DNA of 48,387 nucleotides from a virus: the IMG/VR virus record IMGVR_UViG_3300023179_000166, positions 1-48,387 of that record; one strand, 5' to 3'. The notes beneath the pieces are model-generated. The model saw only the letters and a list, made by a program, of their open reading frames with translations. It did not search any database and had not been told where the DNA came from. The position numbers and the translations under genes were made by a program. The first letter of the stretch is position 1, and each line of letters begins with the position of its first letter. This document shows, piece by piece, positions 46,351-46,512 of this stretch.

Positions 46351-46512
46351 TTAAGTGATAACACTCACAGTCTATGACGACGAGCGAATTTCGGAGTCCG
46401 GTGCGTCCGTTCCTAAGCCATTGCCGAAGTTTTTTCAGGACTGGAAGATGGCCCTACCAGCCCGACTAGTGAGAGCGTCCTCTCACGATACCTTCTGAAT
46501 GCTATCACTTAA
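46351..46512 (-). ncRNA. Candidate 162-nt structured RNA in the tRNA cluster
   Basis: Ends pair in a 16-bp helix (46497-46512 with 46351-46366, one G-T/mismatch). Inside: a perfect 7-bp hairpin 46469-46486 (GTGAGAG/CTCTCAC), a 7-bp hairpin 46438-46463 (GGGCTGG/CCAGTCC) and TTCGG/CCGAA (46390-46394/46424-46428). No coding frame. Lies between tRNA-Ala and tRNA-Leu(UAA). Similar in position and size to T4 stable RNAs C and D; no family match recognised. Confidence 0.65.

Follow-up and report, generated by a model that had tools for sequence, protein, structure and literature searches.

The 48,387 nt sequence of a large bacterial virus analysed here, referred to as the window, harbours a folded RNA gene of approximately 150 nt situated between two tRNA genes. 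This is a real, conserved, non-coding and strongly folded element; well over 100 further large viruses share its fold, and the RNA family they represent is both widespread and phage-specific. As far as the tools used can reach, the family is distinct in sequence and structure from any catalogued RNA, and its genomic setting is one shared with other unexplained RNAs of tRNA arrays. The element is probably a new stand-alone structured phage RNA, excised from a tRNA precursor and acting in trans through a pseudoknotted core.

The RNA is encoded on the minus strand, as are the surrounding tRNAs, by a gene running from around 46516 to 46347. When the extended closing helix is included, the structured element is 170 nt long (46347-46516), with a covariance model match at 46356-46507 scoring 101.8 bits. 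The minus strand of the 162 nt segment originally annotated (46351-46512) has a predicted folding energy of -59.6 kcal/mol and a z score of -4.45, with none of 200 shuffled sequences folding equally well, whereas the plus strand of the same element has a z score of only -1.83; folding the longer stretch 46342-46534 gave a z score of -4.28. The initial annotation, which proposed a structured RNA inside the tRNA cluster without a reading frame, is borne out on the first count by the minus strand z score and by covarying homologues, and on the second by the lack of any open reading frame of at least 120 aa at this locus. The closing helix that it reported as 16 bp is also present, although longer than described. 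This helix, termed P1, is composed of a 5' strand at 46496-46516 (ACCATTAAGTGATAGCATTCA) and a 3' strand at 46347-46367, with 46512-46496 forming 17 continuous pairs with 46351-46367 when G-U is allowed. Placing the ACCA at 46516-46513 opposite the UAGU at 46350-46347 extends the helix to 21 columns with a single mismatch.

The search for homologues started from 80 IMG/VR loci retrieved through the DUF2828 protein encoded near the window RNA. Weak DNA matches at two of these, L025 and L040, proved to be the same RNA, located between tRNA-Glu and tRNA-Lys and closed by a perfect 21 bp helix of a sequence unlike that in the window. A DNA pattern derived from the core shared by these two loci and the window was found in at least 119 stretches of IMG/VR, where by our own estimate chance alone would give about 0.4 (19 fixed bases in roughly 60 Gb). 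Among the matches listed, all 119 of these loci matched a covariance model, R1, with scores of approximately 75-150 bits (E ≤ 1e-15), as did 47 of 50 additional loci among the listed matches to a second, independent pattern that drew on the 3' half of the core alone and was likewise scanned over IMG/VR; the other three did not match R1. By the same model, five loci retrieved with a mis-spaced pattern having six-base arms were not members. Including L025 and L040, there are at least 168 homologous loci, a few of which share a contig. In 257 Gb of prokaryote genomes, by contrast, the first pattern yielded one chance match, which scored 18.9 bits and looks like mraZ coding sequence. Among isolate phages, blastn with seven members returned nothing convincing, and R1 had no match in nine isolate phages, while it matched 23 of 38 metagenomic records; a cultured isolate may still carry the RNA.

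A search for covarying homologues, which the initial annotation had suggested as a check, thus supports the proposed structure, with strong covariation across the family; the lack of conserved pairing that would have counted against it was not observed. In a structure-free MAFFT alignment of 46 sequences, 92.0% of cells were paired and the covariation score was 0.608, compared to 0.192 for shuffled and at most 0.106 for slid alignments. The corresponding figures for a model-based alignment of 87 sequences were 94.8% and 0.711, compared to 0.200 and at most 0.111; as this second alignment is biased towards the model, the 46-sequence figure is the cleaner. The pseudoknot was left out of the model behind the larger alignment, in which all 87 sequences nonetheless form its four counted pairs, and two of these pairs show 42 compensatory cells apiece. 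The pairing types observed include GCCG/CGGC, GCGA/UCGC, GCCA/UGGC, GCGU/ACGC and GCUU/AAGC. The fold is thus real, with a family that covaries and a pseudoknot that is paired throughout with compensatory changes.

The components of this structure can be followed along the minus strand of the window. Across 92 distinct members, P1 varies between 18 and 30 bp in length, with a mean of 21.5 bp. It is followed by a conserved single-stranded segment, AAGGUAUC (46487-46494), for which the independent pattern recovered the variants GGUAAC, GGUAGC and GGAAUC. P2 (46469-46486) is a 7 bp hairpin with both-side changes in six of the seven pairs and a loop (GACG, 46479-46476) that is nearly always the same across the family, even where the pattern left it free, GAUC being rarer. 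P3 (46438-46463) is formed by GGGCUGG and CCAGUCC, keeps an invariant G-U pair across the family, and carries in its loop the 5' strand of the pseudoknot, GCCAU (46448-46452), which pairs with AUGGC at 46421-46417. Between the two lies an A-rich linker, UGAAAAAAC (46429-46437; family consensus UGANANAAC). The P5 hairpin, GGAACGGACGCACCGGACUCC (46393-46413), shows both-side changes at all seven counted pairs in the family, and is followed by a conserved AAAU within GAAAUUC (46386-46392). P6, a probable short helix, is the weakest, with 69% of cells paired in the 87-sequence alignment, and is indistinct in the sequence of the window itself. A further short hairpin between P6 and the 3' strand of P1, such as AACC-UGUAA-GGUU in L251, was seen only in the subfamily comprising the window, L100, L107, L112, L128, L134, L182 and L251. 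The first three members had suggested that the RNA might be a CsrA sponge acting through GGA motifs, and this was rejected when other members of the family were found not to preserve GGA; the P2 loop retains GACG while its closing pair shifts from G-C to A-U.

The association of the RNA with tRNA operons is pronounced. At 88 of the 92 distinct loci there are tRNAs within 3 kb, all 1034 of which are on the strand of the RNA. Of the 82 loci with an upstream tRNA, 72 have it within 300 nt; for downstream tRNAs the corresponding count is 76 of 84, and the start is most often 1-7 nt past P1. Where the upstream tRNA abuts the RNA, its CCA is fully paired within P1 at 30 of 40 loci, which could reflect selection on the tRNA instead of on the RNA. 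In the window, the flanking genes, all on the minus strand, are an intact tRNA-Leu(taa) upstream (46535-46619) and, beginning 5 nt past P1, tRNA-Ala(tgc) (46266-46341), followed by tRNA-Ile and tRNA-Trp. A sigma-70 promoter-like site matching the consensus at 12 of 12 positions (TTGACA-17-TATAAT, 46718-46746, minus strand) precedes both tRNA-Leu and the RNA. Judging by strand, spacing and promoter, the RNA is transcribed together with the tRNAs. Directly upstream of the uninterrupted part of P1 is a 21 nt minus strand stretch resembling the 3' end of a tRNA and terminating in ACCA (ATCGTCCGGCTACGGGCACCA, 46513-46533). Related loci have a complete tRNA, in most cases tRNA-Glu or tRNA-Leu, whose end falls at exactly this point, and for this reason the stretch is probably the decayed tail of a lost upstream tRNA. 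The CCA that had been noted as touching the 5' end of the element is consequently present, but ends this tRNA-like stretch and not an intact tRNA.

Several further observations concern the tRNAs themselves. At L159 (10675-10795), L189 and L117, the RNA has no recognised adjacent tRNA and a tRNA-like or degenerate tRNA stretch is found just upstream; at L159, a promoter-like TTGAAC-17-TATAAT also lies just upstream of the RNA. A sixteenth tRNA in the window (47179-47250, minus strand) was found by Rfam only, having been missed by ARAGORN, and by eye has CCT (Arg) in the anticodon region. Many related phages have tRNAs with the anticodon CUA, labelled Pyl by ARAGORN (for instance L029 8313-8390, L034 7236-7314 and L042 8809-8884), which are candidate amber-suppressor tRNAs for stop codon recoding.

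In the scheme that we favour, transcription from the strong promoter would proceed through tRNA-Leu, the RNA, tRNA-Ala, tRNA-Ile and tRNA-Trp, and the P1 helix of about 20 bp would join the ends of the RNA and protect it. It would be freed by the tRNA-processing enzymes, with RNase P cutting a few nucleotides downstream, where the next tRNA begins, the upstream end resulting from 3' maturation of the preceding tRNA, and RNase III possibly trimming P1. The core of approximately 105 nt, comprising P2, P3 with the pseudoknot, P5 and P6, would then act in trans, most likely through binding to a single conserved partner of use to large phages, either a protein or a ribonucleoprotein; a guess from context would place this partner in translation or in tRNA or RNA metabolism. 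We infer the excision, the stability, the action in trans and the partner of the RNA. Alternatively, it might be a cis-acting element of the tRNA transcript, with P1 and the core steering processing by RNase III, P or E, or preventing transcription termination in an operon that is not translated, functions for which the HK022 put RNA and the leader-trailer helix of rRNA provide precedents. A location in tRNA operons, always on the same strand, would suit such an element, as would a P1 of about two helical turns that so often pairs with the CCA of the abutting tRNA, and a stable P1 within a tRNA precursor could serve processing in cis. However, the RNA is usually internal to the array, with a tRNA close upstream, rather than in a leader position, and in G001, a 149 kb contig in which no tRNA was detected, it lies between protein genes; both observations disfavour a leader or antitermination element. 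Furthermore, the conserved pseudoknotted core far exceeds the needs of processing, and there is a single copy of the RNA even though the arrays have 20-30 tRNAs. An element acting in cis is accordingly considered unlikely, whereas action in trans is favoured by the tRNA-less record, by the presence of one copy only and by how large the conserved core is.

Each of 22 phage records, 100-364 kb in length, has a single copy of the RNA, the second match in one of these, G017, being partial and located at the opposite end of the contig. This distribution also bears on whether the element could be a small mobile sequence with terminal inverted repeats that inserts at the 3' ends of tRNAs. Such an origin would account for the near-perfect terminal inverted repeat, for the frequent abutment to a CCA end, and for the tRNA-end remnant in the window. 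Yet the repeat varies between phages through compensatory substitutions and the core is conserved, with one copy per genome and no instance of several copies in the 22 records, such that a mobile element is very improbable.

Comparisons with known RNAs returned little beyond the tRNAs. Of the 4227 families in Rfam 15, only tRNAs reached the gathering score in the window, only tRNA-Leu was matched around the RNA at E values up to 5, and at ten loci with relatives the matches listed at E values up to 1 were tRNAs, tmRNAs or sub-threshold ones. Neither ARAGORN nor cmscan identified a tRNA or tmRNA at 46347-46516, and a literature search covering few subscription journals found no description of the RNA. 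The initial annotation had drawn a parallel with RNAs C and D of phage T4, which are small and stable and whose genes, like that of the window RNA, lie within the tRNA cluster of a phage. This parallel holds for genomic position and, as had been anticipated, not for sequence; nor does it extend to structure. The genes rnaC and rnaD are annotated in AF158101, and when R1 was run with filters off over the 4.5 kb of T4 at 70000-74500, the best score was 11.4 bits, outside both; rnaC also has a tRNA-like T-arm (CCGGGUUCGAAUCCCGG), which the new family lacks. Kinship to these RNAs is ruled out by the noise-level R1 scores and the T-arm.

Other known RNAs in a similar setting are GOLLD and ROOL, phage RNAs of unknown function found near tRNA islands (PMC12286853). 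Like the new RNA, these are phage or prophage RNAs often located near tRNA islands and having complex pseudoknotted folds, but they are much larger, GOLLD often exceeding 800 nt; the GOLLD model (RF02032) had no match in the window, and the ROOL model none at the window RNA. GOLLD does occur as a separate element in two of the 22 RNA-bearing phages, approximately 2 kb from the RNA in G011 (141221-141685) and across the contig ends from it in G017 (362284-362748), meaning that a single phage tRNA array can accommodate two or more structured RNAs that are unrelated to each other. The permuted tmRNA (RF04321) is another RNA of the same phages, encoded by a gene separate from that of the new RNA, in which neither a tag frame nor an acceptor was found. 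It exceeds the Rfam cut-off in 15 of the 22 large RNA-bearing records and in six of 16 other large records overall, and in five of the seven of at least 75 kb that lack the RNA. The possibility that the new RNA is a piece of the permuted tmRNA was ruled out, as separate tmRNA genes coexist with it and are about as frequent in large records without it. Permuted tmRNAs were also noted within the tRNA arrays of related phages (L029 7735-8200, L034 6119-6531, L046 5402-5853, L160 and L094), where they carry phage-encoded tag peptides such as VAANDNDLMDMRLAA.

The order of elements in the core, with P3 and the pseudoknot followed by the A-rich linker, P6 and P5, is similar to the succession of a hairpin, a pseudoknotted loop, an A-rich linker and an inserted hairpin in the pistol ribozyme, a likeness of topology only. 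Together with the invariant G-U pair and the conserved single-stranded nucleotides, this might indicate a self-cleaving ribozyme. Nevertheless, no known ribozyme class in Rfam was matched at E values up to 5 in the window region or up to 1 at the ten related loci, the new RNA differs from pistol in having an additional P2 and a long P1, and cleavage needs no closing helix of 20 bp. A ribozyme is considered improbable.

No protein neighbour is constant across the family, the best cluster being near 23 of the 92 loci. In the window, a DUF2828/DUF7788 protein of the Ro-like vWA type is encoded 2 kb from the RNA (42821-44212, minus strand), raising the idea that the RNA is a Y RNA-like partner of this protein. 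A long closing stem is a feature of bacterial Y RNAs, and by analogy the RNA, whose closing stem is formed from its two ends as in YrlA (RF02553), might be similarly classified. However, DUF7788 is present in just one of the 22 large RNA-bearing records, and only one (G032) of 16 other long records with a DUF2828 protein has the RNA; the YrlA model did not match at the window RNA at E values up to 5, and the RNA has no tRNA-like domain. As RNA and Ro-like protein do not co-occur, this pairing is largely refuted and highly improbable.

The protein itself was found by tblastn in 682 phage records, with isolate relatives annotated as 'RNA-binding protein', and ROT/TROVE proteins are present in a few of the phages covered by a survey of jumbo phages (PMC7824862). 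Elsewhere in the window, two long proteins with abundant collagen-like GPS/GPQ repeats (639-4532 and 4610-6325, minus strand) are probably virion fibre proteins, and genes at 14444-15584 and 26337-27077 (minus strand), which by eye resemble those for a queuosine-precursor transporter, QueD and GTP cyclohydrolase I, suggest a 7-deazaguanine pathway in this phage.

The novelty of these findings, within the reach of the tools used, lies in the RNA itself, by sequence and by structure, since its genomic setting was already known. Phage tRNA arrays have contained unexplained RNAs since the discovery of T4 RNAs C and D. How remarkable these RNAs can be was shown by GOLLD and ROOL, and the RNA described here is another, unrelated example. 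The pattern and the covariance model would allow others to annotate it immediately. It is an evenly balanced proposition that this is a widespread new class of trans-acting pseudoknotted RNAs, transcribed within tRNA operons and excised by the tRNA-processing machinery, which in cells infected by large phages would bind and reprogram some component of translation or RNA metabolism, whether of the host or of the phage. As the RNA is of a size that suits probing, expression and structure determination, has one copy per genome and is deeply conserved across many large phages, it makes the role of the non-tRNA RNAs of phage tRNA arrays directly testable.
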